In this document: positions 4,677 through 19,592 of the stretch, in pieces | How positions within the stretch are numbered: position 1 is the stretch's first letter | Layout of the letters: each line of letters starts with the position of its first letter | Source of the DNA: Pseudomonas putida | GTDB taxonomy: Bacteria > Pseudomonadota > Gammaproteobacteria > Pseudomonadales > Pseudomonadaceae | DNA: 64,000 nt | Assembly: GCF_002741075.1 (NCBI RefSeq) | Contig: NZ_CP016634.1 | Location: forward strand, 1,070,501-1,134,500 | Reading direction: 5' to 3' | Notes under the pieces: model-generated | What the model was told of the DNA's origin: nothing | The model's database searches: none | The model's input: only the letters and a program-made list of their open reading frames with translations | Translations under genes and position numbers: made by a program

Positions 4677-4690
4677 TTGATCGTTATCAA
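4677..4690 (-). promoter_or_regulatory. FNR/ANR box upstream of GNAT gene
   Basis: TTGATCGTTATCAA, a perfect match to the FNR/ANR consensus TTGAT-N4-ATCAA. It is intergenic, with its centre 73 bases before the GNAT start. Class II placement would put transcription start near 4642. Binding is inferred. Confidence 0.75.
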
Positions 4691-4817
4691 GTGCTCGGTT
4701 GCCGGTCATCGCAGCTGTTCGACATCCACCTCACGGTCCTTCACGAGCAGGTCCGCCGTTGTTCCCGTGGGAACGATTGCCAGGTGCATGAGGATGACGA
4801 GGATTCAAGGGCTTGCC

Positions 4818-4831
4818 TTGACTTTCCTCAA
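4818..4831 (+). promoter_or_regulatory. Possible imperfect FNR/ANR box upstream of the Crp/Fnr gene
   Basis: TTGACTTTCCTCAA deviates by one base in the right arm (CTCAA for GTCAA). It is intergenic, 104 bases before the Crp/Fnr start. It could mean auto- or ANR control of the regulator, but it is weaker than the other boxes. Confidence 0.35.
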
Positions 4832-4934
4832 GTCCTGGCGCGAGGCGGACCCCCCTTGGTCGGCCATGGCGCCAACCCCAGGGGAAGTGGCTAATGTTTA
4901 TTAATGCCCTGCATGAAAAAGCGGAGGCACCCTC

Positions 4935-5666
4935 ATGTCAGGCTCAGAAGATTTGGGAGCAAGGCCCCAGGTGAAGTGCCTTGCGTGCTCATTGAGTCGG
5001 CTTTGCCTGCCCGCCAGCCTCAGCGCTGACGAGGTGGACAAGCTCGAGCGCATCGTGCGCCGGAATCGCCCACTGAAGAAGGGCGAGTACCTGTTCAAGG
5101 CCGATGAGCCCATGGATCACGTATTTGCCCTGCGCTCAGGGGCCATCAAGAATTTCCTGCTCGACGCCGAGGGCAACGAGCGGGTCAGCGGATTCATCCT
5201 GCCGGGAGAAATGTTGGGCCTGGATGCCATCGGTGCCAGTCATTACCGCAGCTACGCCCTGGCGATGGACGTGTCGTTGGTGTGCTCGATCAAGCTCGAT
5301 CAACTGGTTGACCTGTCGGGACAGATTCCCGGCTTGCGCTACCAGTTGTTGCACATGCTCAGCCTGGGCATTCAAGGCAAGGATGAACACCTGCGGTGCT
5401 GTCATGGGCGTGCCGATCAGCGCCTGGCGATTTTCCTGCTGGGCATGTCGGCTCGCTATCACCAACGGGGCCTGCGCACCGACCTGATCAGGTTGCCCAT
5501 GTCCCGGAGTGACATCGCCAATTACCTGGACCTCACCCTCGAAACCGTCAGCCGGTTGTTCAGCCGATTCACCCAGGCGGGGCTCATTGAGTGCGTCGGC
5601 CGTGAAGTCAGGCTTGTCGACCAACCAGGCCTGGTCAACCTCAGCCGGATGGAGGATGCCGGTTGA
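4935..5666 (+). CDS. FNR/ANR-type oxygen-sensing transcription regulator
   Basis: A 243-residue Crp/Fnr family protein. Cysteines C15, C18 and C24 form the CX2CX5C motif, and C117 (SLVCSI) supplies the fourth ligand expected for an oxygen-labile [4Fe-4S] cluster. The cNMP-like beta-roll spans about 30-140. The winged helix near 185-225 has recognition helix residues E203, S206 and R207 (ETVSRLF), the ExxSR pattern that reads TTGAT half-sites. P. putida is known to carry three FNR paralogues of different oxygen sensitivity; this looks like an accessory one. It is surrounded by genes with TTGAT-type boxes and is the likely local regulator, alone or with ANR. Its 3' end overlaps the convergent reductase-like gene by 26 bases. 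Confidence 0.93.
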   Translation: MSGSEDLGARPQVKCLACSLSRLCLPASLSADEVDKLERIVRRNRPLKKGEYLFKADEPMDHVFALRSGAIKNFLLDAEGNERVSGFILPGEMLGLDAIGASHYRSYALAMDVSLVCSIKLDQLVDLSGQIPGLRYQLLHMLSLGIQGKDEHLRCCHGRADQRLAIFLLGMSARYHQRGLRTDLIRLPMSRSDIANYLDLTLETVSRLFSRFTQAGLIECVGREVRLVDQPGLVNLSRMEDAG

Positions 5667-6369
5667 GTATCCAGAGCACCCGGTCATAGCGTTGCACCGG
5701 CCCCCCCAATGCTGATCGCCAGGCCCCGCCAGGGGGCGCGGCTTGATCCGTACGCAGCCAGATACGCTGTGCAGGTACGCCTTGTTGCCAGCACAGGCGC
5801 GCGGCCTGGCGGGCGATTTGCTCCGGCGCGCAGCAGTAGACGGTGTCCGGTCTGAAACGCTCCAGTTGATCCGTAAGTTGTGCCCATCCGCTGCTGTTGC
5901 GGGGGAGGGCAGATGACGCTGAGAGCCGGTGAAGGCACTCCGCAGGAAGGCGATCGGAGGGGAAACCCTCATGCGACAGTTGCACGTGCACCCAAGGTAG
6001 CCAACAGAGGATCTCATCCAGCGCGCACAGGAGGGCCAGGATCCCTTCGCCCCGGGTGATGGCCAGCAGTCGAGCGCTGTGCAAAGGAATCGGCCAGGCG
6101 CTGCCCAGCGGCCCTGAGTAGTCGAGAACATCGCCTGCCTGCCCCAAGGCTTGGGCGCGATGCGTGGTCACGATGAAACGCCTGGCCAGGCCAGGCAGGC
6201 TGATGTAGCTGCAGGGCAGGTCCAGTCCGCGGTTGCCCAGCAGGCAGAACTGGCCCGGCATCGCTTCCGTGAGCGGCGAGCCGCACAACTCCAGACGCAA
6301 GCACTGCTGGGTGCCTGGGCCCGGTAATGTCTCCAGCAATCGGACACGTCCCCTGTCTTCCCGCCTCAT
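5641..6369 (-). CDS. Ferredoxin-reductase-like FAD/NAD-binding protein (orphan)
   Basis: A 242-residue protein resembling the ferredoxin-NADP reductase superfamily (PyrK/sulfhydrogenase gamma type). The FAD-barrel pattern AMPGQFCLL is followed by a PCSYIS segment in the place of the usual RPYSI-type motif. A DYSGPLGSAWPI turn, a LLAITRGEGILALLCALDEIL nucleotide-binding start and a late YCCAPEQIARQAARL segment follow. No C-terminal iron-sulfur cysteine cluster is evident. The start at 6369 follows GAGG; a longer frame would begin inside the upstream FNR box and is rejected. The gene is single and has an FNR-like box at 6431-6444, so a redox role at low oxygen is plausible; its partner is unknown. 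Confidence 0.7.
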   Translation of the reverse strand: MRREDRGRVRLLETLPGPGTQQCLRLELCGSPLTEAMPGQFCLLGNRGLDLPCSYISLPGLARRFIVTTHRAQALGQAGDVLDYSGPLGSAWPIPLHSARLLAITRGEGILALLCALDEILCWLPWVHVQLSHEGFPSDRLPAECLHRLSASSALPRNSSGWAQLTDQLERFRPDTVYCCAPEQIARQAARLCWQQGVPAQRIWLRTDQAAPPGGAWRSALGGPVQRYDRVLWILNRHPPSG

Positions 6370-6430
6370 AAGCGCCTCGTGCGTGCGTTTGCATGCTTTC
6401 TTCAGGCTAGGCCCCTGCCAGAGGTGCACT

Positions 6431-6444
6431 TTGATCAGGGTCAA
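6431..6444 (-). promoter_or_regulatory. FNR/ANR box upstream of reductase-like gene
   Basis: TTGATCAGGGTCAA fits TTGAT-N4-GTCAA. On the minus strand a possible -10 (TAGCCT, 6404-6409) sits 31 bases from the box centre, as expected for a class II FNR promoter. Confidence 0.65.
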
Positions 6445-6473
6445 ACCGGCACCCGATGGCTTGCTTCTGCCGG

Positions 6474-6487
6474 TTGATAAAGATCAA
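6474..6487 (+). promoter_or_regulatory. FNR/ANR box upstream of hsp20-CBS-phosphoketolase
   Basis: TTGATAAAGATCAA is a perfect FNR/ANR box, 43 bases centre-to-centre from the oppositely used box at 6431-6444. Class II placement predicts transcription start near 6522, 37 bases before the hsp20 ATG. Confidence 0.75.
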
Positions 6488-6558
6488 GTGCAGCGCCGCC
6501 GTGCGGCGGAAGATCAGAGTGTCTCCAAGGGAGGCATCATTCATTCGAGGAGGTCGCC

Positions 6559-7119
6559 ATGTCTGAAGTCGCCAAGAAAGTCCCCGTCACTCCCGTTGCC
6601 GCCCAGCCGGCCAAAGCTGCGCCGCCCAGCACAGAGTCGTCCGATCTGTGGCGCCCCTTCCAACAGCTGCGACGCCAGGTCGATAGCCTGTTCGAGGATT
6701 TCGGACGGCGGCCACTGCGCATGCCGTTTACCCATACGCCGTTCGACATCGAGCCATTCTGGCGTCGTGAGCTGTTCACCCATGGCATGCCGGCAATGGA
6801 CATCAGCGAGCTGGCCGACGAGTACCGGATCAGCGCCGAGCTGCCTGGTGTGGACGAGAAGGATATCGAGATCAAACTGGCCAACGGCAACCTGGTGATC
6901 CGTGGCGAGAAGCACGAGGAAACTGACGAAAAACGCAAGGAATACCACTTGTCCGAGCGGCACTACGGCAGTTTCGAGCGCGTCTTCCAACTGCCCCGCG
7001 AGGTCGACGCTGAAAAGATCAATGCCCAGTTCGCCAAGGGTGTGTTGCTGGTGCGCCTGCCCAAACGCGCCGAGGCGATTCACCCAGAAAAGCTGATCCC
7101 GATCAAAAGTGGCAAATGA
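6559..7119 (+). CDS. Hsp20/alpha-crystallin small heat shock protein
   Basis: A 186-residue small heat shock protein. The alpha-crystallin domain occupies about residues 75-175: MDISELADEYRISAELPGV, then NLVIRGEKHEE, and the closing GVLLVRLPKRAEA. The N-terminal 30 residues are Ala/Pro/Lys-rich and low complexity, and a LFEDFGRRP segment is typical for bacterial class A sHsps. It would act as an ATP-independent holdase in the cytoplasm. GAGGAGG lies 7 bases before the ATG. It heads a three-gene unit with the CBS protein and phosphoketolase, downstream of a perfect FNR box, so oxygen limitation rather than heat may be its main inducer. Confidence 0.95.
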   Translation: MSEVAKKVPVTPVAAQPAKAAPPSTESSDLWRPFQQLRRQVDSLFEDFGRRPLRMPFTHTPFDIEPFWRRELFTHGMPAMDISELADEYRISAELPGVDEKDIEIKLANGNLVIRGEKHEETDEKRKEYHLSERHYGSFERVFQLPREVDAEKINAQFAKGVLLVRLPKRAEAIHPEKLIPIKSGK

Positions 7120-7177
7120 GTCGAGCCAGCATCAGGAGCAAGGACGCTCCGCCCTCGCTATTTACAGGTAGAACATC

Positions 7178-7642
7178 ATGTCCATTGGTAAATACTGCAA
7201 CCGGGAGGTCGTCACTGCGCCGCCCACCCTGTCGATCTACGCTGCCGCCCGCAAGATGAGCCAATATCATGTCGGTGACCTGGTACTGGCCGAACCGGTC
7301 GACCGCGACCGTTATCGGCCTGTCGGCCTCATCACCGACCGCGACCTTGCGCTCAGGATCATTGCCCGCAATCCTCCCGATCAGGAGGATCTGCAGGCGA
7401 TCGATGTGGTGCCCCGACCGCTGATCACCGCGAATCAGAACGAAGACCTGTTCGATGTCATTCAGAACATGCGCCGCGCCAACATACGACGGATCCCGGT
7501 GGTGGACGATTTCGGTCTGTTGGTCGGGATTGCCACGGCCGATGACCTGGCAGGGTTGTTGATCGACAACCTGCATGAGTTGTCATTGCTGATTCGTCAG
7601 CAGAGCCGGCGAGAGGAAGATATCCGCGTCGAGGATCTCTGA
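7178..7642 (+). CDS. CBS-pair domain protein
   Basis: A 154-residue protein made almost entirely of two CBS motifs (about residues 1-60 and 75-135; GLITDRDLALRIIARN and GIATADDLAGLL are the two closing segments). Such stand-alone CBS pairs bind adenine nucleotides (AMP, ATP, NAD or SAM) and often modulate a partner enzyme. It lies 58 bases after hsp20 and 63 before phosphoketolase on the same strand, and probably senses energy charge in this low-oxygen unit. The partner is not known. Confidence 0.92.
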   Translation: MSIGKYCNREVVTAPPTLSIYAAARKMSQYHVGDLVLAEPVDRDRYRPVGLITDRDLALRIIARNPPDQEDLQAIDVVPRPLITANQNEDLFDVIQNMRRANIRRIPVVDDFGLLVGIATADDLAGLLIDNLHELSLLIRQQSRREEDIRVEDL

Positions 7643-7705
7643 ACCCATTGGCAGCGGCCGTGCATGTGGTACCGACTGCCGCGCACCGCGAAGCTGGGGA
7701 CGATC

Positions 7706-10081
7706 ATGAGCGACTTTCCAAGTACCGAAACGCTGGAAGGGCTGGATGCGTATTGGCGCGCTGCCAACTACCTGACCGTGGGGCAGATCTACCTGCAGGC
7801 CAACCCGCTGCTCGACAGCCCACTGACGTTGGCCCACATCAAGCCGCGCCTGTTGGGCCATTGGGGAACGTCCCCAGGCCTGAACCTGCTCTATACGCAC
7901 CTGAACCGCCTCATCCGTGAGCATGACCTGAACATGCTGTTCGTCGCCGGCCCCGGCCATGGAGGGCCGGCCATCGTCGCCCAGACCTACCTGGAGGGTA
8001 CTTACACCGAACTGTACCCAGCGGTCGAGCGCAATGCGCAGGGCCTGGCCCAGCTGTTCAGGCAGTTTTCCTGGCCTTATGGCATTGGCAGCCATGTCGG
8101 GGCCCATGTCCCCGGGTCCATCCATGAAGGTGGCGAGTTGGGTTATGCGTTGGCACATGCGTATGGCGCCGCGCTGGACAACCCGCAGCTCATCGTTGCC
8201 TGTGTCATCGGCGACGGTGAGGCGGAAACGGGGGCGCTGGCGGCCAGTTGGCATTGCAACAAGTTCCTCAATCCCGCACGTGACGGCGCGGTACTGCCAA
8301 TCTTGCACCTCAACGGCTACAAGATCGCCAACCCCACGGTGTTGTCCAGGATCAGCGAGGATGAACTGACCAGCCTGATGTATGGCTACGGCTATGACCC
8401 GTACTACGTCGAAGGCGATGAACCCATGGAGGTTCATCGCGCACTGGTCAGGACGCTCGACGTGATCCTTGAAAAGATCCACCAGATCCAGCGTCTGGCC
8501 CGGCATGTGGAGGCTGACGAGCCTATCGAGCGGCCACTCTGGCCTGTGCTGGTGCTTCGCACCCCCAAAGGCTGGACGGGGCCGAAGTTCGTCGACGGGC
8601 TGCGGGTGGAGGGCACCTGGCGCTCCCATCAATTGCCCCTGGCTGACCTGGATAAGCCACTGCACTTGCAGCAGCTTCAACAATGGCTGGAGAGCTACCG
8701 CCCCCATGAACTGTTCGACGCCCAAGGGGCTCTGCTGCCTGAACTGGCCGCGCTGGCACCGCGCGGGCGACGGCGCATGAGTGCCAACCCTCACGCCAAC
8801 GGGGGCCTGCTGCTGCGTGCGCTGGACCTGCCGCGCTTCGTCGACTACGAAGTGCAGATGGCCGGGCCCGGACGGGTACGTGCGCAGGCGACGCAGGTGC
8901 TTGGTCGGTATGTGCGCGATGTAATGAAAAACAGCTTGGTGTCTCGCGACTTCCGGCTCTTCGGACCAGATGAAACCGCCTCCAATCGTCTGGACGCGGT
9001 TTTCGAGACGACCGGCAAGGTCTGGCTGGACCCTTGCAGTGTCGATGACAGCCACCTCGCAGCGGATGGCCGGGTCATGGAGATTCTCAGCGAGCAGGTC
9101 TGTGAAGGCTGGCTGGAGGGCTACCTGCTGACTGGCCGCCACGGTTTGTTCTCTTGCTATGAAGCCTTCATCCACATCGTCGATTCGATGGTCAACCAGC
9201 ATGCCAAGTGGCTCAAGACCGCTGCCGAGGTGCCATGGCGCAAGCCGATCGCCTCGCTGAACATCCTGCTCACGTCCCATGTCTGGCGCCAGGATCACAA
9301 CGGCTTCTCACATCAGGATCCGGGCTTTCTCGACATGCTTGCCAACAAGAAGGCCGATGTGGCGCGCATCTACCTCCCTGCCGATGCCAACTGCCTGTTG
9401 TCGGTGGTCGACCATTGCCTGCGCAGCCGCGACTACATCAACGTCATCGTCGCGGGCAAGCAACTGGAGTGGCAATGGCTGGACGGTGAAGCGGCCAACC
9501 AGCACTGCCAGGCCGGTATCGGTCGATGGGCTTGGGCCAGCCATGATGACGATGATCCCGATGTGGTCATGGCCTGTGCCGGCGATATACCGACCTTGGA
9601 AGTGCTGGCGGCGGTCACGCTGCTTCGCGAGTGCGTCGCCGATTTGCGGGTCAGGGTGGTGAATGTTGTCGACCTGCTGGCGCTGCAGACATCGCATCAG
9701 CATCCCCATGGGCTACCCGACAGTGACTTCAATGCGCTGTTCACTCACGAGCGGCCAGTCATCTTTGCGTTCCATGGGTATCCGGCCCTGATTCACCGGC
9801 TGATCTACAAGCGCGTGAATCCAGAGCGGTTCCACGTGCGTGGCTTTTGCGAAGAAGGGGCAACCACCACACCGTTCGACATGGCGGTGCTCAACCACCT
9901 GGATCGCTATCAGCTGGTACTGGATGTGTTCGAGCGCGTTCCCCGCTTGCAGGGACACGTCGAGCAGGCGCGGTCCCGTTACTGGTCGACCATGGAAAAG
10001 CACAAGCTTTATCTGATCGAACATGGCGAGGATCTGCCTGAAGTCGCCCAATGGCACTGGACACCGCCACCAAGCGCCTGA
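7706..10081 (+). CDS. xfp: Phosphoketolase (xylulose-5-P/fructose-6-P)
   Basis: A 791-residue thiamine diphosphate enzyme of the XFP family, full length. The N-terminal [25 protein letters not shown], the TPP/Mg motif [26 protein letters not shown] and the C-terminal [14 protein letters not shown] are all recognisable. It cleaves xylulose-5-phosphate (and/or fructose-6-phosphate) with phosphate to acetyl phosphate plus glyceraldehyde-3-phosphate (or erythrose-4-phosphate). The start at 7706 has GGGGA upstream; an in-frame ATG at 7664 has none. No acetate kinase is present in the window. Placement behind an FNR box, with PRPP and phosphoribosyl enzymes nearby, suggests a fermentative or oxygen-limited carbon and ATP route. 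Confidence 0.95.
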
Positions 10082-10088
10082 CGCCTCG

Positions 10089-10514
10089 TTACTTGGCTTT
10101 CCAGTACTTCTGCATTTCCAGGAACAGGAACGACGCGGTCCAGGTGATCAACACCAGGCCTGTCAGCGCTTGCAGGCCTGTGAGGTACTTGAGGTTGCCG
10201 GTGGGGGCGATATCGCCGAAGCCGATGGTGGTGTAGGTGGTGAAGGAGAAGTACACGCAGTCCATGAACGAGCCGTCGAATTGACCAGTGAGCGAGCCCC
10301 AGCCCTGGGCATTGTCCATCAGGTAGTAGGCCAGGGCGAAGCACCACACCTCCAGTGCATGGGCCAGCAGCGCCCCGAACACGCCGACCACGATCCGAAA
10401 GCGGCTCCATAGCTTGAGCCGTGGCAGCCAGTCGTTCAGGCGCAGAAGGCACTCGTAGTGAATGATCACCACCAGGATCACGACCAGTGTGTTGATCAGC
10501 GTGACGGTGAGCAT
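10089..10514 (-). CDS. Two-TM potassium channel family protein
   Basis: A 141-residue integral membrane protein with the K+ selectivity filter TTYTTIGFGD in a pore loop between hydrophobic helices (about residues 3-20, 45-65 and 110-130). It lacks a cytoplasmic regulatory domain, like other short bacterial ion-channel-2 proteins. The ATG at 10514 has GGG 8 bases upstream; a GTG three codons earlier is possible. It is downstream of ftsH (28-base gap), so it should be co-transcribed from the FNR-boxed ftsH promoter. It converges on phosphoketolase with only 7 bases between. Confidence 0.85.
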   Translation of the reverse strand: MLTVTLINTLVVILVVIIHYECLLRLNDWLPRLKLWSRFRIVVGVFGALLAHALEVWCFALAYYLMDNAQGWGSLTGQFDGSFMDCVYFSFTTYTTIGFGDIAPTGNLKYLTGLQALTGLVLITWTASFLFLEMQKYWKAK

Positions 10515-10542
10515 GGCAGGCACCCTGTCTGGAGTCGGGTCA

Positions 10543-12384
10543 TCATTTCGCAGTGCCGACCCACGGGTAGGTCACCGGCTCCTTGAGCTGCGGCTGGAGT
10601 GCGGGAAACTCTTCGGGTGTGATGGTTTCTTTGGCCAGCAGCAAGTGCGCGCCAGCGTCCAGGTCTGCGCGGCGTTGTTCGAGCAAGGTCTGGGCTCGCT
10701 GGTAGGCCTGTTCGAGCAGCTCACGGATACCGAGATCGATTTCCCGCGCGGTCTGCTCGGAATAGTCCTTGTGTTCCTGACGCAGCAGGGCCTCCCCGAG
10801 ATAACTGGCCTGCTGGCGCTCCAGCACCGCCTGACCCAACTCCGGGCTCATGCCGAACCGGGTGATCAGTTGTCGGGCGATATCGGTGGCGCGTCCCAGG
10901 TCATCGGCGGCCCCGGTGGACACCTGGCCGAATGCCAGGTTTTCGGCCGCGCGTCCGGCCATCAGCACGACGATACGGTCCCTGAGCATCTGCGCGCTGA
11001 TGAGGAAGCGGTCGTCCGTCGGCCGTTGCAGGGTATAGCCCAGCGAGCCTGCGGCACGGGGGATGATCGACACCTTGTGGACCGGGTCCATCGCCGGCAG
11101 GCTGCTGGCAGCCAGGGCATGGCCCATTTCGTGATACGCCACGATCTGGCGTTCGTCTTCACGCAGCACGGTGCTCTTGCGCTCCACGCCGGCGACCAGA
11201 CGCTCGACCGCTGCGGTGAAGTCCTCCAGCTCGACCCACTGGCTGGCGCGCCGGGTGGCGACGATGGCCGCCTCGTTGACCAGATTGGCCAGGTCGGCGC
11301 CGGTCAGGCCTGGGGTGATGTCGGCGATGCGCTCGCAATCCAGGTCGTTCTTGTAGACGATCTTGTGCAGGTGCACTTTCAGGATGGCCAGGCGGCCTTT
11401 GCGATCAGGCCGGTCGATCAGGATCTGCCGGTCGAACCGCCCAGCGCGCAGCAACGCCGGGTCCAGGACCTCGGGGCGGTTGGTCGCCGCCAGCAGCACG
11501 ACGCCTTCGCGAGGATCGAAGCCGTCCAGTTCGGCCAGCAACTGGTTAAGTGTCTGCTCCTTTTCGTCATTGCCGCCCAGGTTGCCGATACCGCGCATCT
11601 TGCCCAGGGCGTCCAGTTCATCGATGAAAATGATGCAGGGTGCTGCCTGCCGAGCCTGGTCGAACAGGTCGCGTACCCGGGCGGCGCCTACCCCCACGAA
11701 CATTTCCACGAACTCTGACCCGGAGATCGAGAAGAAGGGGACGCCCGCTTCCCCGGCGATGGCCTTGGCCACCAGGGTCTTGCCGGTGCCAGGGGGGCCG
11801 ACCAGCAGTGTGCCTTTGGGGACGTGGGCGCCCAGGCGTGCATACCAAGCCTGGTTTTTCAGGAACGAGACGATTTCGATCAGTTCATCCTTGACGTCAT
11901 CGATCCCGGCAACGTCGGCGAAGGTGACCTGGATGTCCCGCTGGGCATAGACCCGCGCACGAGACTTGCCGACGCTCATCAAGCCGCCTAGCCCCTGCTT
12001 TTCGCCAAACCCTCGGAAGATGAAGAACCAGGCACCGAGCATCACCAGCAGCGGCAGCAACCAGCCCGCCATGTCGGCGATCGTGTTGTCTTCCGCCAGG
12101 CCGGTAAAGGCCACGCCGGACTGGCTGAGCTGCGCCGACAGTGCCGGGTCGACGCGCACGGTGGTAAACCGCTCGCGTCCGTCGATGGGCTCCTGCAGCC
12201 TGCCCTGGATACGATTGCGCCTGATTTGCAGGTCACTGACTTTCTGCTGTTCGAGCAATTGCAGGAACTGGCTGTAAGGCAGGGTTACGACAGCCGAGCG
12301 GTCGAACAGGCTGAACAGCAGGGCGGTGAGCAGCGCCAGCGCGATCGCCAGGTAATACAGTTTCGATGGCTGATCTTTTTTCAT
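10543..12384 (-). CDS. ftsH: FtsH-family AAA+ zinc metalloprotease (accessory paralogue)
   Basis: A 613-residue membrane-anchored ATP-dependent protease. Two N-terminal TM segments (about 10-26 and 106-124) flank a periplasmic domain. Walker A GPPGTGKT is at 196-203, Walker [11 protein letters not shown] at 251-260, the second region of homology is [25 protein letters not shown], and zinc motif HEMGH is at 418-422. The start at 12384 follows GAGGAA; a longer frame has no support. The housekeeping ftsH normally sits beside rrmJ/folP, so this copy among hypoxia genes is probably an accessory quality-control protease. An FNR box lies at 12507-12520 with a TAAAAA -10 correctly spaced for this gene. 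Confidence 0.93.
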
Positions 12385-12520: not shown

Positions 12521-12551
12521 GATCGGCGTGCAGCCCCCACGCTACAGGAGC

Positions 12552-12565: not shown

Positions 12566-12625
12566 GCCGCTGCCTGCTGCGCTGCGGATACTCAGGCTAT
12601 CTTCGGCACCTGCGAGGGCATGGAC

Positions 12626-12874
12626 ATGCGACGTTATCTGTTTATCGGCTTGTCGAGCGTGCTGGTATTGGTTTCTGGCTGCAGTCCTTGGCGTACCGAG
12701 GAACTCGACGCGCGCCTGGAATCGGCCGAGAACAATGCTGCCACTGCGCGGCTGCGCGCCGATCAGGTCTGCTACCGGATCGATCTGGTCGAGCAGACTG
12801 CCAACCAGGCGCTGCGTATCGCGACCCAGACCCAGGAAGAGGTCCGACGGTTGCAGCAGGCCAAACAGAAGTAA
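12626..12874 (+). CDS. Small Lpp/OprI-like outer-membrane lipoprotein
   Basis: An 82-residue lipoprotein. The signal peptide MRRYLFIGLSSVLVLVSGC ends in the lipobox LVSGC. The remainder is an Ala/Glu/Gln-rich predicted coiled coil (RLESAENNAATARLRAD, then a QEEVRRLQQAKQK tail), like Lpp/OprI. The second of two nearby ATGs is chosen because GAGGG is 8 bases before it. The last residue is Lys, as in Lpp proteins that attach to peptidoglycan. The stop is 5 bases before the ATPase gene, so the two are translationally linked and probably share FNR control. Confidence 0.82.
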   Translation: MRRYLFIGLSSVLVLVSGCSPWRTEELDARLESAENNAATARLRADQVCYRIDLVEQTANQALRIATQTQEEVRRLQQAKQK

Positions 12875-12879
12875 CCGCC

Positions 12880-15162
12880 ATGTCTCGTCGGTGGCTGGAC
12901 CTGGGCCTGTTGCTCGTCAGTGGCTTGGCCTTGCTGTTCGGCGCAGGTGCCTATGCCGCGCAGCAGCCTGCCTGGGCAGCGCTGATCTGGGCGGGGGGCA
13001 GCAGTGTGATGGCCTTGGTGCTGGCGGTGGAAATCGCCAGACGCCTGGTCAGGCGCGAAGCGGGCATCGATCTCATCGCACTGGTGTCGATCCTGGCGGC
13101 GCTGTGGCTTGAGCAGATGCTGGTCGGCGCGGTGATCGCGCTGATGCTGGCCACCGGGCGCGCACTGGAAGCACTCAGCCTGCAGCACGCCGAGCGCGAG
13201 CTGCGGGCCTTGATCGAGCGGGCACCCCAGCGTGCCTGGATCCAGGAGAACGACGGGCTGCATGAAGTGCCCGTGGACGCGGTTCAGCCCGGTCAAACCG
13301 TATTGGTGCGCCTGGGCGAGGTGGTGCCGGTCGACGGTCGCCTGGTCAGCGCTCAGGTGATCCTGGATGAAGCTGCGCTCACCGGTGAATCGCTGCCTGT
13401 CACGCGCTACGCGGGCGAACTGCTGCCCAGTGGTGTAACCAACACCGGCGCGCCGGTGCAGGTGTTGGCCATGCGCACGGCGGCGCAGAGTACTTACGCA
13501 GGCATCGTGCATCTGGCCGAGGCGGCGCGCCGATCACGCGCGCCTTTCGTTCGATTGGCCGATCGTTACGCCTTGGGCTTCATTGCGCTGACATTGTTGG
13601 TCGCAGGGGCCGCCTGGTGGCTCAGTGGTGATATGCAGCGTGTGCTGGCCGTGTTGGTGGTCGCTACACCCTGTCCGCTCATATTGGCGGTGCCCATCGC
13701 CATCATTTCTGGTATTTCCAGGGCCGCGCGACGCAATATCCTCATGCGTGATGGCCAGGTTCTGGAAGCGCTCGCCGGGATTCGGCAAGTGTTTCTGGAC
13801 AAGACCGGCACCTTGACCGGCGGCCACGCCCACGTGCAATCGATCGAGGTCCAGGGCGAGGGTGCGCCGCTGCAAGTCCTGCAATGGGCCGCTTCGTTGG
13901 CGCAGGCTTCTTCGCATCCGATCGCTCAGGCCATTGTCCAGGCCGCTCGTGTGCGGGGTGTGTCGCTGATACCGCCGCAGGCTGTAGAGGAGGCTCCCGG
14001 GCAGGGGCTTGCCGGCACCGTACAAGGTCATGCCGTGCGCCTGGGCACCGTGGGCTATGTCCAAGATGAAGCACAGACCGATGCCTGGGCTCAGGCGCGT
14101 TTGCAGGAACTGGATTACCTGGCCTGCAGTGGCAGCTTCGCCACGATCGACGGCCAGTTGAAGGGGGTGATCAGGCTGGCCGACAACCTGCGTCTGGAGG
14201 CGCCCCAGACCCTGCGCTTGCTCCGCGCCCGTGGTATCGAGAAGGTCGCCATGCTCACGGGCGATCGTCTGGAAACCGCGCAGGCGATCGCGCTGACGGC
14301 GGGCATCGACGAACTGCATGCTGGCCTGACGCCCGAGGACAAGGTGCGCCTGGTACAGGAAGGCTGCCGTCGTGCGCCGACGTTGATGGTCGGCGATGGC
14401 ATCAATGATGCGCCCGCCCTGGCCGCCGCCGATGTCGGCGTGGCCATGGGCGCGTCTGGTATCACGGCCTCGGCGCAGGCGGCCGGTGTGGTCCTGCTGG
14501 TGGACCGATTCGACCGGCTGGTCGAGGCCTTGGACATTGCCCGACATGCCGTGCACATCGCTCGCCAGGGGGTGTGGGCCGGGATGAGCCTGTCTTTGCT
14601 GGCCATGGTCATCGCCGCGGCAGGCTACCTGCCGGCCTTGCTCGGCGCCATCCTGCAGGAAGGGATCGATCTGCTGATCATCGGCAATGCATTGCGCGCG
14701 CTAGGGCCCTGGCCTGGTAGACGACGCGCCGGGATCGACGTCGCAGCGATCGACCGGCTCGAGGATGAGCACCGGCAGTTGGATGGGGTGCTGACGGACC
14801 TGAGCCAGATGGCCCGGGATTTTTCCAGCCGCCCCCTCGACAAGGCACAGGGCGATTTGCGCAACCTGGTCGCCGCATTGCACAACCTGTTGGAGCGCCA
14901 CGAGCGCGATGATGAACGCCGGCTCTATCCGCTGCTGAGCCGCTTCATGCCCGGTGAAGATCCGCTGTCGACCATGAGCCATACCCACCGAGAAATCTTT
15001 CGGCTCATCCATCTGCTGTCTCGCATGAGCGACGATTTCAGCCAGGCCACACGGCCTCCCAGCGCTGATGAGATACAGCATCAGCTCATTCGCCTGGACA
15101 CCCTGGCGAAGCTGCATTTCGACCAGGAGGAAGCGCTGTACCGGTATCTGGATCGGCACTGA
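12880..15162 (+). CDS. P1B-type metal-transport ATPase with C-terminal hemerythrin domain
   Basis: A 760-residue fusion. Residues 1-610 are a P1B ATPase: actuator LTGESLPV, membrane motif TPCP at 263-266, phosphorylated D307 in DKTGTLTGG, TGDR, and the hinge GDGINDAPAL. There is no N-terminal CxxC metal-binding domain. Residues about 619-760 form a hemerythrin-like four-helix domain with ligand-type residues in DEHRQ, LLERHERDDERRLYP, SHTHREIF and LHFDQEEALY. A TPC membrane motif plus C-terminal hemerythrin is the hallmark of the P1B-5 subgroup (Nia-type; nickel and iron have been proposed as cargo). The diiron site may let oxygen or iron status control transport. The start is 5 bases after the lipoprotein gene. 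Confidence 0.9.
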   Translation: MSRRWLDLGLLLVSGLALLFGAGAYAAQQPAWAALIWAGGSSVMALVLAVEIARRLVRREAGIDLIALVSILAALWLEQMLVGAVIALMLATGRALEALSLQHAERELRALIERAPQRAWIQENDGLHEVPVDAVQPGQTVLVRLGEVVPVDGRLVSAQVILDEAALTGESLPVTRYAGELLPSGVTNTGAPVQVLAMRTAAQSTYAGIVHLAEAARRSRAPFVRLADRYALGFIALTLLVAGAAWWLSGDMQRVLAVLVVATPCPLILAVPIAIISGISRAARRNILMRDGQVLEALAGIRQVFLDKTGTLTGGHAHVQSIEVQGEGAPLQVLQWAASLAQASSHPIAQAIVQAARVRGVSLIPPQAVEEAPGQGLAGTVQGHAVRLGTVGYVQDEAQTDAWAQARLQELDYLACSGSFATIDGQLKGVIRLADNLRLEAPQTLRLLRARGIEKVAMLTGDRLETAQAIALTAGIDELHAGLTPEDKVRLVQEGCRRAPTLMVGDGINDAPALAAADVGVAMGASGITASAQAAGVVLLVDRFDRLVEALDIARHAVHIARQGVWAGMSLSLLAMVIAAAGYLPALLGAILQEGIDLLIIGNALRALGPWPGRRRAGIDVAAIDRLEDEHRQLDGVLTDLSQMARDFSSRPLDKAQGDLRNLVAALHNLLERHERDDERRLYPLLSRFMPGEDPLSTMSHTHREIFRLIHLLSRMSDDFSQATRPPSADEIQHQLIRLDTLAKLHFDQEEALYRYLDRH

Positions 15163-15290
15163 GCGAGGGGGGCGGACGATTGATGAAAATCGAGCACCCG
15201 CGCCCGCGCGGGGCGATGCTGGTCGCAGGAGGAGGTGTGCCCACCCCCGCTCACCGCCCATCATGAGCCATTATCAACGCCTGCTGTTGA

Positions 15291-16277
15291 TCATGCGCCC
15301 TGTCCTGCGCCAATCCAGCGCGCCGGATCCCTGCCGTTTTCAAGCAGCAACTCGGCGACCAGAGCGGTCGTGTCGAGGATCTCCAGTTGCCGCTGGCAAT
15401 GCGCGGGCAGGCGCAAGGGCGGGACACTGTCGGCGACCAGGACACGTTCGAACACGCCGGCCTCGAACAGCTGACCACCGGTGGTGAACAGACCGTGGGT
15501 GGCAGCGGCCAATACCCGGCTTGCGCCTGCCTGCAGGCAGGCCTGCCCGGCACGCAGCAGTGTCTGACCGGTACTGATCAGGTCGTCGAAAACGATGACG
15601 GTTCTGCCGGCTACGTCACCTACCAGATGCTTGCCCCGCAGCCCTGTCGGGTCACGGTGTTTCTCCATCAAGGCGCCCGATACCGGTTGGGCCAGCAGGC
15701 CAGCCAACGCCTCGCGGAAATGTTCGGCACGTTTGGCGCCGCCCAGGTCGGGCGAAACCACTGCAACCGGCTGCTCACCCAGGAGCGTGGCGAAGCGATG
15801 GGCGAACACCTGCGTGCATTGCAGGTTCCAGGCTGGGATGCGATAGGCATTGTCGAACGCACTGGGGTTGTGTACATCCAGGGTCACGATCCGATCCACG
15901 CCACAGCACTCCATCAGGCGCGCGACATGCCGGGTAATCGTCGAATCCTGGAACTCGACCTTGCGGTCCTTGCGGCCATAACACAGGTAGGGCGCCACCA
16001 CTGTGACCTGGCATGCACCTGCGTCTTTGAGGGCTGCGCAGAAAAACAGCAGGCGGCACAGCTTGTCATGCGTGCTGCGGTGTTCGTCACCGTACAGCGA
16101 GTGGAAGACGACCACCTGGCGACCGTTGGCCGATACGGTTGGCCAGCATTTGTGCTCACCGTCTTCGTAGTCGCGCTCTTCGTGCATTGACACCGTCACG
16201 CCTAAACGTCGCGCCACCGCATGGCCATAGGCTTGGCTGCCTTGCAGGGCGAACAACAGTGGACAGGTAGCGTTCAT
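15291..16277 (-). CDS. Divergent ribose-phosphate pyrophosphokinase (PRPP synthetase)
   Basis: A 328-residue protein with the two-domain PRPP-synthetase layout: LVVFHSLYGDEHRSTHDKLCR (compare the canonical ANDxLMELL region), VAPYLCYGRKDRK (ATP loop, canonical PYxxYARQDR), LDVHNPS, and the PRPP loop VIVFDDLISTGQTLL. It makes PRPP from ribose-5-phosphate and ATP if active. Several canonical positions are replaced, so it is a paralogue rather than the housekeeping prs. The start at 16277 has AGGT close upstream. An FNR box with a well-placed TATGTT -10 lies directly upstream. The link with the two phosphoribosyltransferases in the island is an inference. Confidence 0.85.
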   Translation of the reverse strand: MNATCPLLFALQGSQAYGHAVARRLGVTVSMHEERDYEDGEHKCWPTVSANGRQVVVFHSLYGDEHRSTHDKLCRLLFFCAALKDAGACQVTVVAPYLCYGRKDRKVEFQDSTITRHVARLMECCGVDRIVTLDVHNPSAFDNAYRIPAWNLQCTQVFAHRFATLLGEQPVAVVSPDLGGAKRAEHFREALAGLLAQPVSGALMEKHRDPTGLRGKHLVGDVAGRTVIVFDDLISTGQTLLRAGQACLQAGASRVLAAATHGLFTTGGQLFEAGVFERVLVADSVPPLRLPAHCQRQLEILDTTALVAELLLENGRDPARWIGAGQGA

Positions 16278-16334
16278 GACCTGCGCTCCGAGCCGGGTTT
16301 TCAACTCAACATAAGGGGCGAGCCGCCCCTCGAT

Positions 16335-16348
16335 TTGACCATTGTCAA
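16335..16348 (-). promoter_or_regulatory. FNR/ANR box between PRPP synthetase and zinc-ribbon genes
   Basis: TTGACCATTGTCAA has fully symmetrical arms. On the minus strand TATGTT (16308-16313) is 31 bases from the centre, fitting a class II promoter for the PRPP synthetase gene. It may also act on the plus-strand gene, where no clear -10 is seen. Confidence 0.7.
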
Positions 16349-16434
16349 GTCCAGCATAGGCAGCCCGCAGACACTGGATAGGCCAACGCATGCGCACGCC
16401 TGCGATCCTCACACCCTGCACAGCGAGTACGCCA

Positions 16435-16926
16435 ATGGACAAGTATCAGAAAAGCCGCAAGGACAAATTGTTCAAATCGCATCCGCTCGATCCCTATGCC
16501 ATGCCGCTTCGTCCTGGCGGCAAAGCCCGCTGCCCACAATGCGGCGCTGCCTATCACGATGGCGAGTGGCATTGGCACAGCCCTACCGGGCCAGGGCATG
16601 TGGAGTCGACAGTATGTCCAGCATGCCGTCGCATCGAAGACCGTGCCGCAGCCGGCCAAGTCCGGGTTTCGGGCCGGTTCCTGGACAGTCATGAAGATGA
16701 GATTCGCCAGCTCATGCAGCACACCGAGCAGCAAGAAAAGCAGACGCACGTGCTCGAGCGCTTGATCGCCATCGACCGTCAACAGAACGAGCTGGTGGCA
16801 ATGACCACCGGCACCCACTTGGCAAACCGCATCGGCCATGAACTGGAAGCGGCCTACGATGGCCACTGCAGCTACCAGTACAGTGACAGTGAGGTCTACC
16901 TGAGCGTCGACTGGCACCGCGACTGA
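16435..16926 (+). CDS. BCAM0308-type zinc-ribbon protein, function unknown
   Basis: A 163-residue protein with two CPxC pairs, RCPQCGAAY near residue 32 and VCPACRRIED near 60, which probably form one zinc ribbon. The N terminus (KYQKSRKDKLFKSHPLDPY) matches my recollection of the uncharacterised BCAM0308 family, where a basic helix is followed by such a ribbon. The C-terminal half is charged and mixed alpha/beta. The start at 16435 (MDKYQ) is preferred over an upstream frame because the family begins there; the ribosome site is weak. It is divergent from the PRPP synthetase over a shared FNR box. The pattern suggests a nucleic-acid or ribosome-associated role, which is inference. Confidence 0.75.
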   Translation: MDKYQKSRKDKLFKSHPLDPYAMPLRPGGKARCPQCGAAYHDGEWHWHSPTGPGHVESTVCPACRRIEDRAAAGQVRVSGRFLDSHEDEIRQLMQHTEQQEKQTHVLERLIAIDRQQNELVAMTTGTHLANRIGHELEAAYDGHCSYQYSDSEVYLSVDWHRD

Positions 16927-16988
16927 GCGGTGCCGCTGGTCGCCAGGCTGATTCGGGCCCACGCCCGTCCAGTCTGGCGATTCATCGT

Positions 16989-17885
16989 TCAACTGTGGAT
17001 GGCCAGAATGCTGGACTGTACTTTGTACAGGGCCTGCTCGGTGGTGCTGCCGACAACCTTGGTGAGCCCTTCATGGTAGAGCGTCCCCATCACCATCACA
17101 TCGAAGCCGTGCTGATTGGCGTATTCACTGACCACCTTGCTGGCGGGTCCACGCAACAGATGCAAGTGATCTTGTCGGATGCCGTAGTCGGCCCCCAGCT
17201 TTGCCATGCGCTCGCGTGCGCGGCCGGTCATTTCCTCGACCAGCGCCTCGGTCCAGGCCACCGGGGCGGCTGCATAGGCAACGAAACTGGGGCTGGGCTC
17301 GTATGCCTGAAGCATGTGCAGTTGCGCTTTACAGCGCTGGGCCAGGGCATGGGCCGCTTGCAGGATGCGATCGTTGAGCTTCTGAATCGTCGGGTCGTTC
17401 TCGGCCAGTTCCACAGCGGCAATGATGCGTTGCGGCAGTGTGGGCTCGGCATGGGCTACCAGGTGCAGAGGGATCGGGCAACGGCGCAGCAATTGCCAGT
17501 CCAGTGGCGTGAGCAAGGCGCGGCTCAAGGCGGTTTCATGCTTGATGTCCTTGATCACCATCTCCACCCGATGCAGTTGGGCCAGGCGGATCAAGTCCTT
17601 GAGCGGATCATCCTCGTCCACTGCTTCGGCGTAGGCGGTGATGCCAAGTGCAGCCAACGCCGTGACTTGTTCGGCCAGCCAGGCCTTGCGATGTTCGGCG
17701 TCTTGCTTTCGGGCACTGCTGCGCAGCACCTGGTCTAGCGTCGTCAAGCGGTTTGGCAGTTGGCTCAACACCACAAGGTGCAGGGTAGCCCCCATGCCAC
17801 TGGCCAGGGCTTGCGCGCGGGCCATGGCGGGCGAGGGGTGCAGACCGGGATGGCAGATCAACAGGAGTCGTGAATAGGTAGTCAT
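16989..17885 (-). CDS. Tandem universal stress protein (UspE-like)
   Basis: A 298-residue protein with two Usp domains (about 1-145 and 150-298). The first starts SRLLLICHPG; the second starts QRIIAAVEL and ends VMGTLYHEGLTKVVGSTTEQALYKVQSSILAI, close to the Usp nucleotide-loop pattern. The start at 17885 has GAGGAGG 5-6 bases upstream. It is divergent from a second tandem Usp gene, with one perfect FNR box between them. Universal stress proteins of this size in Pseudomonas are known to be ANR-controlled and to support survival without oxygen. Confidence 0.92.
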   Translation of the reverse strand: MTTYSRLLLICHPGLHPSPAMARAQALASGMGATLHLVVLSQLPNRLTTLDQVLRSSARKQDAEHRKAWLAEQVTALAALGITAYAEAVDEDDPLKDLIRLAQLHRVEMVIKDIKHETALSRALLTPLDWQLLRRCPIPLHLVAHAEPTLPQRIIAAVELAENDPTIQKLNDRILQAAHALAQRCKAQLHMLQAYEPSPSFVAYAAAPVAWTEALVEEMTGRARERMAKLGADYGIRQDHLHLLRGPASKVVSEYANQHGFDVMVMGTLYHEGLTKVVGSTTEQALYKVQSSILAIHS

Positions 17886-17964
17886 GATGGCCTCCTCGGC
17901 GATGGCTGCCTTGAGCAAGGCGCATCGGTACAGGCCAAGGGTGACCTATCGGGCCTTTCAAGCC

Positions 17965-17978
17965 TTGATTTTTATCAA
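17965..17978 (+). promoter_or_regulatory. FNR/ANR box between divergent Usp genes
   Basis: TTGATTTTTATCAA is a perfect box. For the plus-strand gene GATAAT (18001-18006) lies 32 bases from the centre, so transcription should begin near 18013, 36 bases before the ATG. It probably serves both genes. Confidence 0.8.
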
Positions 17979-18048
17979 GATTGGCCAAGCCCACAGTTCC
18001 GATAATGACGGGGCTGCGAGTGTCTACCCTCGCCTCGGGAGGTGACTG

Positions 18049-18942
18049 ATGAGCCCGTACCGTCGGATTCTCGTGATCATGACCAAAACCGAGCCGCGTC
18101 CGGCCGCCTTGCGCCGGGCCCTGGCGCTGGCGGACGCGTCGGGTGCTGCGTTGCATGTTCTCGCTGTCCATGAACCCGCTGAGCTGCAATTGCACCATGC
18201 GCTGCAGGAACCCGCTGTCTCGACCGCAGCGTTCGCACATTTCAGCGCCGAGCTCAAAGCATTGCTGGACGAGCAGGGCGCCCACCAGACTCGCCCATCG
18301 TTCGAGGCCGTTCAGACCCTCGACGCGCGTGATTTCATCCCCGCCTATATCGCGAAGTTCGCACCTGATCTGGTGATCAAGGATTGTCCTGTCAGCTCGA
18401 TGGTCGACCAGATCGCACAGACCTCCCTCGACTACGCGCTATTGCATGCTGGCCAAGGGGCGTTCCAGTTCGTGCCGGCCAATGCCCCTGCCATGCCGGC
18501 TCAGGTGTTGATCGCGGTGGATGTAGCCAGTCCGCAGCCCGCTCAGCAGGCGCTCAACCACCAGTTGGTTGAGGCCGGTCAGCAGCTGGCGCGTCTGTGC
18601 AAGGGACAGGCTCACTTGTTGTCGGCCTATGACCTGCCCATGGCCATGCTGGCCAATGCGGCGCTTGCCGAACCATGGGCGCAGGAGGTGCGCGAGTCAC
18701 TGCGGGTTCCGTTCGATGCCCTGGCCGATGCGCACGGCATTGCCTATTCGCATCGGTACTTCGTCGAGGGGGCACCGCTGCGCACCATCAAGGCACACAT
18801 CAGCTCGCTGATGATCGATGTGGTCGTGGTGGGGGTGGTGCAGCCCAAACGCTGGGCCAAGCTGATTGGGGACACCACCGACAGACTCCTTGGCAATGCC
18901 CCCTGCAGCATTCTGGCGATCAGGCCGAAACCTGCCGGCTGA
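18049..18942 (+). CDS. Tandem universal stress protein
   Basis: A 297-residue protein with two Usp domains (YRRILVIMTKTEP at the N terminus; AQVLIAVDVASPQPAQQ at about residue 150). The second domain ends VVVGVVQPKRWAKLIGDTTDRLLGNAPCSILAI, the usual G-x2-9-G(S/T) loop region in degenerate form. GGGAGGTGA precedes the ATG. It is a diverged partner of the minus-strand Usp gene and shares its FNR box. Its 3' end overlaps the convergent phosphoribosyltransferase by 23 bases. Confidence 0.92.
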   Translation: MSPYRRILVIMTKTEPRPAALRRALALADASGAALHVLAVHEPAELQLHHALQEPAVSTAAFAHFSAELKALLDEQGAHQTRPSFEAVQTLDARDFIPAYIAKFAPDLVIKDCPVSSMVDQIAQTSLDYALLHAGQGAFQFVPANAPAMPAQVLIAVDVASPQPAQQALNHQLVEAGQQLARLCKGQAHLLSAYDLPMAMLANAALAEPWAQEVRESLRVPFDALADAHGIAYSHRYFVEGAPLRTIKAHISSLMIDVVVVGVVQPKRWAKLIGDTTDRLLGNAPCSILAIRPKPAG

Positions 18943-19516
18943 CCGTGGCGGTGCTGTGCGCTTGGCCATGGCGCACCACTTCAATACAAAAGTCGGCTTC
19001 ATAGGGCGGAACGTGGCACTCGATGATGTCTTGCGCGGCCACCTGCAAATGGACGCCGACAATGTCTGCATGGACTGGTTGGCGGCAGACGTGCCGGTCG
19101 ACGAGTACGGCGCTCAGTACGCGGCGCGCACCCAACTGAGCCAGGTAGGCACAGGTGCGCAGCAACGAATGCCCTTCATAGAGCACGTCGTCGACCACCA
19201 GCAAGGTGGTCTCGGCCAGGTTCAAGGTGTCGAGCGAGGGGTTTTCGATGAGCTGCGTATGGGCATGCAGAAGGGTGAGGTCGTCCGCGTAGCGCTTGAC
19301 CTTGATAGGGTAAAGCGGCAAGGGAGGCTGCCCGGTCAGTTGCTGGATATGCTCTTGTAGACGACGAGCCAGCGGTTCACCACGGCGCTGTATGCCGATC
19401 AGGGCAGCTTGGGACGGCGGCAGGCATGCCGTGGCCTGGCGTGCCATCGCCCGCAGCACGCCCTCGAGGTCGTCTGCATCGTACAGGCGTGTTCTTGAAG
19501 GGGCGGGAGAGTTCAT
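18920..19516 (-). CDS. PyrR-like phosphoribosyltransferase
   Basis: A 198-residue PRTase with the PRPP loop LLVVDDVLYEGHSLLRTCAYL near residue 105 and an N-terminal AALIGIQRRGEPLARRLQEHI, both close to PyrR (uracil phosphoribosyltransferase/attenuation protein). No pyrBC genes are adjacent, so it is not in the usual pyr operon. The start at 19516 follows CGGAG. The upstream FNR-like box and its place beside Usp and PRPP synthetase genes suggest a base-salvage role when oxygen is low. Whether it binds RNA is unknown. Confidence 0.85.
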   Translation of the reverse strand: MNSPAPSRTRLYDADDLEGVLRAMARQATACLPPSQAALIGIQRRGEPLARRLQEHIQQLTGQPPLPLYPIKVKRYADDLTLLHAHTQLIENPSLDTLNLAETTLLVVDDVLYEGHSLLRTCAYLAQLGARRVLSAVLVDRHVCRQPVHADIVGVHLQVAAQDIIECHVPPYEADFCIEVVRHGQAHSTATVSRQVSA

Positions 19517-19578
19517 CGGGCGTACTCCGAAGCAAAGGGACGTCACGCCTTACCTTAGTCGGCGAAGTCCAGGCTGTT

Positions 19579-19592
19579 TTGACAAAGGTTAA
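19579..19592 (-). promoter_or_regulatory. FNR/ANR-like box upstream of PyrR-like gene
   Basis: TTGACAAAGGTTAA differs at one base of the right arm. On the minus strand TAAGGT (19552-19557) is 31 bases from the centre, which supports a class II promoter for the PRTase gene. Confidence 0.55.

Follow-up and report, generated by a model that had tools for sequence, protein, structure and literature searches.

Introduction

The DosR dormancy regulon of mycobacteria comprises Hsp20, universal stress proteins (Usps), CBS proteins and a P-type ATPase, and is switched in hypoxia by a two-component regulator unrelated to the FNR family. Likewise, the lxa locus of Burkholderia cenocepacia is a low-oxygen-activated stress cluster. 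Here we describe a locus of Pseudomonas putida contained largely in a stretch of 64,000 nucleotides (nt), called the window, which corresponds to C2:1070501-1134500 of a 5.85-Mb genome (C2 is the contig carrying the window). Together with DNA lying upstream, for which we use negative coordinates or the designation L016, the window very probably contains an FNR-family regulon gathered on one island of about 24 kb, the boxes of which would switch it when oxygen falls. The island looks like one low-oxygen switch because an FNR site precedes nearly every gene group.

Gene sets of related kinds have been described in rhizobia. A predicted FixK regulon contains Hsp20, phosphoketolase and CBS genes, and a predicted FNR regulon contains UspA and P-type ATPase genes (PMC2908626). 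Microoxic Bradyrhizobium diazoefficiens induces Usp, CBS, phosphoketolase, Hsp20, GNAT and P-type ATPase genes (PMC6515984), and a small heat-shock protein is upregulated about 50-fold at 1% oxygen in an FnrN-dependent manner (PMC11784457). The rhizobial regulators are different, and FixK2 is not directly controlled by oxygen (PMC2908626).

The closest description that we found is that of two clusters in P. putida KT2440, in which the authors believe that FnrB and FnrC regulate their neighbor genes (PMC7801951). Judged by the product names in the table rows covered, PP_3230-PP_3238 and PP_3287-PP_3294 contain the same two regulator types as our island, and share with it a phosphoribosyltransferase, an acetyltransferase, Hsp20, an OprI lipoprotein, Usps, PyrR, a metallo-beta-lactamase fold and a membrane protein. 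According to the locus tags these are two separate groups in KT2440, whereas they are joined in the present island, which adds a phosphoketolase, FtsH, a hemerythrin-ATPase and a phosphoribosyl pyrophosphate (PRPP) synthetase, all unlisted in those rows. The available passages of that report give neither boxes nor promoter geometry. P. putida possesses three FNR proteins that differ in oxygen sensitivity. The clusters of PP_3233 and PP_3287 react with oxygen at 38 and 55 per M per s, compared to 280 for ANR, which is 5 to 7 times slower, and their targets were left as an open question by the authors (PMC4505428). In the literature covered, which did not include subscription papers, no box array or class II geometry was found for such an island. 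The main text of PMC6588701 makes no mention of universal stress, heat shock, PP_32 or phosphoketolase, and its supplementary site list may already include the boxes of the KT2440 genes. The individual pieces were known beforehand; what is new is their shuffled regulon, gathered in one place.

Results and Discussion

FNR boxes are concentrated on an island of about 24 kb

We initially counted matches to the FNR box TTGAYNNNNRTCAA. The window contains six exact matches, compared to 0.10 expected, and none of 100 shuffles reached six; with up to one mismatch allowed there are 20, compared to 3.73 expected. Genome-wide, 36 exact sites were detected, while the pattern read backwards gave 2. Eight of the 36 fall within 21 kb (C2:1067396-1088478). 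The cluster begins about 3 kb upstream of the window, where two exact boxes (C2:1067396 and 1067455) precede a Usp gene. Also upstream of the window, two one-mismatch boxes occupy the gap between a GNAT gene and the Usp gene that follows. We therefore delimit the island at window positions -4322 to 19840, from a second FNR gene upstream of the window to about 19.6 kb.

Between the stop of this FNR gene (L016 15678) and window position 19840, 14 intergenic boxes, 8 of them exact, occupy 2,611 intergenic nt. The rest of the window (19841-64000) has two intergenic one-mismatch boxes, at 37119 and 52128, in 5,575 intergenic nt, and no exact box; here, as everywhere outside the island, the gene borders come from a naive gene caller. 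A sample of 360 kb from this genome, taken as 18 stretches of 20 kb, was likewise free of exact boxes. When the half-site was permuted (n = 60), the island contained a mean of 0.33 exact matches, against 8 for the true half-site. That the boxes are chance palindromes in intergenic DNA is thus practically excluded: the shuffles, the permuted half-sites and the fixed -10 spacing of 31 nt described below led us to reject it.

A first-pass annotation of this DNA had picked out nine boxes by eye, and all nine were found. Those at 4677, 6431, 6474, 12507, 16335 and 17965 match TTGAYNNNNRTCAA exactly, while those at 4818, 12552 and 19579 have one mismatch each; all are intergenic, also with revised gene starts. 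The higher box density expected of such an island was borne out by the above counts. The list itself was incomplete, as it lacked the two exact and two one-mismatch boxes upstream of the window and a decayed box at 15180. It had noticed none before the genes of the other 44 kb, where there is indeed no exact box, and where the two one-mismatch boxes lie between genes. In addition, an 867-residue open reading frame (ORF) had been started mechanically at 12559, overlapping the box at 12552; likelier starts are 12620, for a lipoprotein in another frame, and 12880, for the ATPase. The boxes in the window and their best -10 hexamers are as follows.

4677-4690: FNR box TTGATCGTTATCAA, exact, for the GNAT gene (minus strand); -10 GAAACT at 4650-4655, 31 nt; same box and GAAACT in the relative G237
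4818-4831: weak box TTGACTTTCCTCAA, one mismatch, upstream of fnrB; no fitting -10 toward fnrB
6431-6444: FNR box TTGATCAGGGTCAA, exact, for the reductase-like gene (minus strand); -10 TAGCCT at 6404-6409
6474-6487: FNR box TTGATAAAGATCAA, exact, for hsp20-CBS-xfp (plus strand); -10 GAAGAT at 6509-6514
12507-12520: FNR box TTGATAAAGGTCAA, exact, for accessory ftsH-ion channel (minus strand); -10 TAAAAA at 12480-12485
12552-12565: FNR box TTGATAAATGTCAG, one mismatch, for lipoprotein-ATPase (plus strand); -10 GATACT at 12587-12592, 31 nt
15180-15193: decayed box TTGATGAAAATCGA; GATGCT at 15215-15220, 31 nt; no gene behind it here
16335-16348: FNR box TTGACCATTGTCAA, exact, common to prs (minus strand, TATGTT at 16308-16313) and the zinc-ribbon gene (plus strand, GACACT at 16370-16375)
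17965-17978: FNR box TTGATTTTTATCAA, exact, common to two Usp genes; GATAAT at 18001-18006 (plus strand), weak CACCCT at 17938-17943 (minus strand)
19579-19592: FNR box TTGACAAAGGTTAA, one mismatch, for the PyrR-like gene (minus strand); -10 TAAGGT at 19552-19557, 31 nt

The boxes lie at a fixed distance from -10 hexamers

To study the promoter geometry, we scored the hexamers lying 29 to 35 nt from the center of each of 16 directed boxes, that is, 15 facing a gene and the decayed box at 15180, and kept the best -10. In 14 of the 16 it was located at exactly 31 nt, in one at 32 and in one, that of fnrB, at 33. Without 15180, the mean -10 score was 2.30, compared to -0.85 (standard deviation, 0.56) over 5,000 simple shuffles, none of which scored equally high. 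The hexamers previously noted at 31 to 32 nt were recovered for ftsH (TAAAAA, 31), prs (TATGTT, 31), the Usp gene (GATAAT, 32), the PyrR-like gene (TAAGGT, 31) and the reductase-like gene (TAGCCT, 31). At a score threshold of 1.4, a box with a -10 at 31 or 32 nt occurs 14 times in the 24.2-kb island (out of 18 boxes with up to one mismatch; one of the 14 is intragenic), twice in the 360-kb sample and once in the remaining window, where it is intragenic. Seven of the 8 exact sites inside the island have a best -10 score of at least 1.9 at 31 to 32 nt, compared to 8 of 27 outside it (27 of the 28 were read). A class II FNR promoter, with its box at -41.5, yields such a box-to-hexamer spacing. 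Judged by sequence, the island boxes have class II FNR geometry, which is weak or absent for fnrA, fnrB and uspC.

By position, all transcription units between the upstream FNR gene and the PyrR-like gene, both included, are headed by a box, with the exception of fnrB. As grouped by spacing and strand, the putative units with a box are fnrA with a small ORF (weak -10), uspA, gnat1, uspB-betaCASP-1018-1721, gnat2-EreA, the reductase-like gene, hsp20-CBS-xfp, ftsH-channel, lipoprotein-ATPase, prs, the zinc ribbon, a pair of Usps of which one has a weak -10, and pyrR. The island genes in the window are listed below.

1-998, plus strand: beta-CASP metallo-hydrolase, 3' part; starts upstream of the window, behind a Usp gene
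1018-1662, plus strand: membrane-like protein (by sequence); no Pfam or NCBIfam match
1721-2425, plus strand: phosphoribosyltransferase-domain protein (Pfam scan)
2612-3988, minus strand: erythromycin-esterase-family protein, EreA (Pfam scan)
4041-4610, minus strand: GNAT acetyltransferase (Pfam)
4935-5666, plus strand: fnrB, FNR-type regulator (Pfam, alignments); CLACSLSRLC cluster motif and ETVSR recognition helix, PP_3233 type
5641-6369, minus strand: reductase-like protein (label of the first-pass annotation); no NCBIfam match; retained with its box in relatives
6559-7119, plus strand: Hsp20 small heat-shock protein (Pfam)
7178-7642, plus strand: CBS-pair protein (Pfam)
7706-10081, plus strand: phosphoketolase, XFP (Pfam)
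10089-10523, minus strand: ion channel, Ion_trans_2 (Pfam scan)
10543-12384, minus strand: accessory FtsH protease (Pfam scan, tree)
12620-12874, plus strand: Lpp/OprI alanine-zipper lipoprotein (NCBIfam)
12880-15162, plus strand: P1B-type ATPase with C-terminal hemerythrin domain (Pfam, NCBIfam)
15291-16277, minus strand: ribose-phosphate pyrophosphokinase family, prs (Pfam, NCBIfam)
16435-16926, plus strand: zinc-ribbon protein, NCBIfam lxa_BCAM0308 (163 bits, cut-off 100)
16989-17885, minus strand: tandem Usp protein (Pfam scan)
18049-18942, plus strand: tandem Usp protein (Pfam scan)
18920-19516, minus strand: PyrR-like phosphoribosyltransferase, beneath the NCBIfam PyrR cut-offs

The products of 1018-1662 and 5641-6369 match no family and are retained in relatives.

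Two FNR paralogues accompany the boxes

The island carries two FNR paralogues, FnrB (4935-5666) in the window and FnrA (L016 15678-16475, minus strand) just upstream. In both, the cluster cysteines (C-x2-C-x5-C plus the VC cysteine) all align with those of Anr, and in FnrB also with those of a solved FNR. The E-x2-S-R recognition helix reads ETVSR in FnrB and ETICR in FnrA. In an alignment limited to our own genome, Ala takes the place of E. coli Asp22 in FnrB, and FnrA bears Arg at 24 together with Cys at 212; a Ser-to-Cys change in the recognition helix is likewise reported for PP_3287 (PMC4505428). By alignment, FnrB and FnrA bear the PP_3233 and PP_3287 residues, respectively. Neither reaches the cut-off of the NCBIfam Fnr subfamily (PRK11161, 228 bits), FnrB narrowly with 223.1 bits and FnrA with 194.2 bits, which places both, on these scores, as FNR-like paralogues outside that subfamily. 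When overexpressed, PP_3233 and PP_3287 drove the FF-41.5 reporter, described as class II, and oxygen turned the reporter down (PMC4505428).

The boxes, their spacing, their conservation and the FNR residues can be read from the DNA; from them we infer the binding, the oxygen response, the division of labor among the regulators and a survival role of the island. According to our model, FNR-type [4Fe-4S] proteins (Anr, FnrA and FnrB) would dimerize as oxygen falls, and the dimers would bind TTGAYNNNNRTCAA boxes centered near -41.5. Class II contact with RNA polymerase would then activate about 14 transcription units. The products would be the Hsp20/FtsH chaperone and protease set (with GroEL in relatives), tandem Usps, CBS protein, phosphoketolase, PRPP enzymes and the hemerythrin-ATPase. 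FnrB (Ala 22) and FnrA (Arg 24) are expected to be slower than Anr in losing their cluster, so that the island could remain active at oxygen levels too high for the Anr regulon. The island would be a compact answer to the question of what the slower FNRs control, with about 14 promoters, mostly of one geometry, beside both genes. It also forms a natural library of class II FNR promoters and, in a widely used production host, suggests genes responding to oxygen gradients in large fermenters.

It could be argued that Anr alone switches the island, with FnrA and FnrB playing a minor role or acting on other targets. In preliminary shift assays a common site was bound by each of the three FNRs of KT2440, and single-copy PP_3233 and PP_3287 gave 128 and 184 Miller units, compared to 8,550 for ANR (PMC4505428). 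Moreover, the island-like loci of two relatives, G006 and G070, have boxes with no FnrA-like match (1e-75) and only one FNR match (1e-50). The number of genomes with an FnrA-like gene at 1e-75 is nevertheless a lower bound, because genes of this kind that miss the threshold are found close to xfp in G227, G158, G183 and G247. Against Anr acting alone, both paralogues lie inside or at the edge of the island in 10 of the 10 P. putida-group loci that span both (in G125 they are on different contigs), and the cluster substitutions in our genome equal those of the KT2440 proteins. We regard control by Anr alone as unlikely, if clearly the strongest of the alternatives. Another CRP/FNR protein could use the boxes instead, such as the nitric-oxide-sensing Dnr, whose boxes reportedly cannot be told from those of Anr (PMC6588701). 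As both island FNR genes hold all cluster cysteines, we consider this very improbable, no search of this genome for Dnr having been made.

Boxes and gene order in Pseudomonas relatives

FnrB with at least 81% identity was found in 11 of 298 Pseudomonas genomes, our own included, and with 48 to 55% identity in 7 more; the named carriers include P. guariconensis LMG 27394 (95%), P. taiwanensis, P. putida KH-21-134, P. vlassakiae and P. parasichuanensis. An FnrA-like protein (1e-75) is present in 46 of the 298 and the accessory FtsH (1e-230) in 36. The hemerythrin-ATPase was unproductive as a marker, with 5 of 115 genomes at 1e-80, our own included. We compared 41 loci, consisting of our own, regions of 20 genomes (17 with FnrB and 3 with the hemerythrin-ATPase) and 20-kb FtsH windows from 20 of the 36 genomes; G005, G006 and G332 are in both sets, and two G332 stretches overlap. 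A box with up to one mismatch lies within 300 nt of 226 of 348 island-gene starts and of none of 4 flank-gene starts, while a control palindrome gave 1 of 352. Box and -10 (score of at least 2 at 31 or 32 nt) occur together at 98 of the 348. The box-center-to-hexamer distance was 31 nt in 90 cases and 32 in 14, with 1 to 12 at each of the remaining distances between 16 and 59. When a separate count extended the search range to 25 to 40 nt, 77 of 123 best -10s were at 31.

The gene order is scrambled across these loci, with 123 distinct neighbor pairs, of which 64 occur once, although box and spacing persist. The reductase-like gene has its box in 10 of the 10 loci having the gene, our own included; box and -10 at 31 or 32 nt precede lpp at 8 of 8 starts, and box and -10 precede pyrR at 7 of 9. 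Where hsp20 is absent (G237, G147 and G025), its box is absent too and the box of the neighbor is kept. In G234 the ftsH and lipoprotein-ATPase units are separated, each with its own box, the ftsH box having moved along. Behind the ATPase, G189 carries a groEL-like gene together with an exact box, and exact boxes are found there also in G147, G121 and G271; our genome has no groEL paralogue at this place, and the decayed box at 15180 remains. The fnrA-uspA island end is present in two copies about 19 kb apart in G147 (L068-L069), which suggests duplication or recombination between islands.

The boxes near the regulator genes differ from the others. An exact box lies 110.5 nt from fnrB in G147, G057, G045 and G189, the same distance as the weak box at 4818, and 111.5 nt in G121. 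The box at 4818 is probably a relic, because there is no fitting -10 in the fnrB direction. As an activating site for fnrB it was rejected: none of the relatives has its best -10 facing fnrB at 31 nt. Upstream of fnrA, the nearer exact box is found at 286 to 527 nt in 10 of 11 copies, and at 1,452 nt in G025, and the -10 facing fnrA is no more than weak.

Published expression data on KT2440

Under nitrogen limitation, PP_3230, PP_3232, PP_3234 to PP_3238, PP_3287, PP_3289 to PP_3292 and PP_3294 fall about 6- to 130-fold in the KT2440 wild type; ccoOQP-1, which encodes an ANR-dependent oxidase, falls alongside them, and fnrB is unchanged (PMC7801951). Reading this experiment in terms of oxygen would be our interpretation and not that of the authors. 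The unchanged fnrB fits our model, because fnrB is the gene without class II geometry here.

Several points weigh against a low-oxygen regulon of this kind. The co-change is a decrease on nitrogen limitation, in an experiment where oxygen was not the variable studied; the Table 1 rows covered (PMC7801951) lack PP_3231, PP_3288 and PP_3293; and the equivalence of KT2440 and island genes is judged by what the products are called and by their order rather than by sequence. In a microarray study of raised pressure and oxygen, only PP_3293 among these tags appears in the available text, at -1.74-fold (PMC3621253). The -10 weights were assigned by hand, and for the comparison of island and sample a threshold of 1.4 was chosen after the first scan (the 41-locus count used 2.0). 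The relatives share ancestry, so that their counts are not independent. A box without a -10 of score 2 at 31 or 32 nt is the rule for uspC (0 of 19 with such a -10), the zinc ribbon (0 of 9), BON (0 of 5) and fnrB (0 of 18), the -10 toward fnrA is weak (CACGCT), a box stands immediately before only 14 of 29 ftsH starts, and G045 has kept the hsp20 box without hsp20. Together, box density, class II spacing, conservation, the two FNR genes and the KT2440 co-change strongly support the part of the first-pass proposal that concerns FNR-type control of one coordinated stress island. Its borders (4677-19592) were too narrow, as the island covers about 24 kb and starts upstream of the window.

FtsH relatives on plasmids and other known stress loci

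To place the accessory FtsH, we examined its relatives on 216 plasmid records, of which 15 of the 20 first listed were read. The six best among these 15 (60 to 64% identity, 92% coverage) all have an exact box, centered 64 to 79 nt before the start. The nine others (57 to 59%, two of them on tLST plasmids) have none, and a one-mismatch box was found in one of the nine. At 60% identity or more there are 22 plasmid records, namely those six, at least four split Klebsiella copies (63% coverage) and others. In the FtsH tree, the six plasmid sequences are the sister group of 27 Pseudomonas sequences, apart from the other 16 (support 100/99; midpoint root), while the raw identities overlap (58 to 62% versus 55 to 60%). 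An exact box precedes this sister lineage of rhizobial type as it does the island gene; unlike the island, none of the six promoters has a -10 at 31 nt. At 1e-215, the accessory FtsH was detected in 8 of 321 genomes of the class, our own included, and was unproductive as a marker beyond Pseudomonas: the other 7, loci of other genera with more distant FtsH relatives, have no comparable island or box before ftsH. On a Pseudorhizobium flavum plasmid (L182), ftsH lies near genes for a ribose-phosphate pyrophosphokinase and a product annotated as xylulose 5-phosphate 3-epimerase, an island-like set. By its length the latter is possibly a phosphoketolase, and the locus has only a one-mismatch box.

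These likenesses tie the protein-quality-control and Usp set of Pseudomonas to rhizobial microoxic regulons. We give somewhat less than an even chance to a wider reading, that of a genus-wide hypoxia regulon that shuffles promoter-gene cassettes with oxygen-tolerant FNRs co-traveling, as a dedicated regulon of PP_3233/PP_3287 type with a FixK/FnrN-type sister on rhizobial plasmids. Gene order and content would be rebuilt between species, every gene holding on to a class II FNR promoter of its own, and the co-traveling paralogues would raise the oxygen threshold above that of Anr.

The island also resembles tLST/LHR heat-resistance islands in kind, as both combine Hsp20 with an accessory FtsH. 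The tLST/LHR loci differ in their ClpK content and, in one of two plasmids, YfdX/HdeD; none of these three families turned up in Pfam scans of the island proteins, although no dedicated search was made. Moreover, their FtsH belongs to the other clade (100/99), and no box lies within 400 nt upstream of it in the two plasmids read. On the clade and the missing box we rejected tLST membership, and we consider an island of this heat-resistance type very unlikely. A likeness to the lxa locus is seen in the zinc-ribbon protein, which matches lxa_BCAM0308 above the cut-off. In 15 loci of 12 to 20 kb around such zinc-ribbon genes, from 14 other genomes, 17 exact boxes were found in 283 kb, where permuted palindromes gave 0.7 on average; no exact box was present in 8 of the 15.

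Genomic setting of the island

The nearest match to PF00589 (tyrosine integrase) is about 70 kb from the island, transposases and serine recombinases not having been searched for, and there are no tRNA genes at the island; both features also speak against the tLST type. The GC content across window positions 1 to 20000 is ordinary (0.61 to 0.64). A classic integrase-borne island was rejected on these three grounds, other mobile-element families not having been searched for. The sole tRNA gene of the window, for tRNA-Val, is located at 51847-51923, distant from the island.

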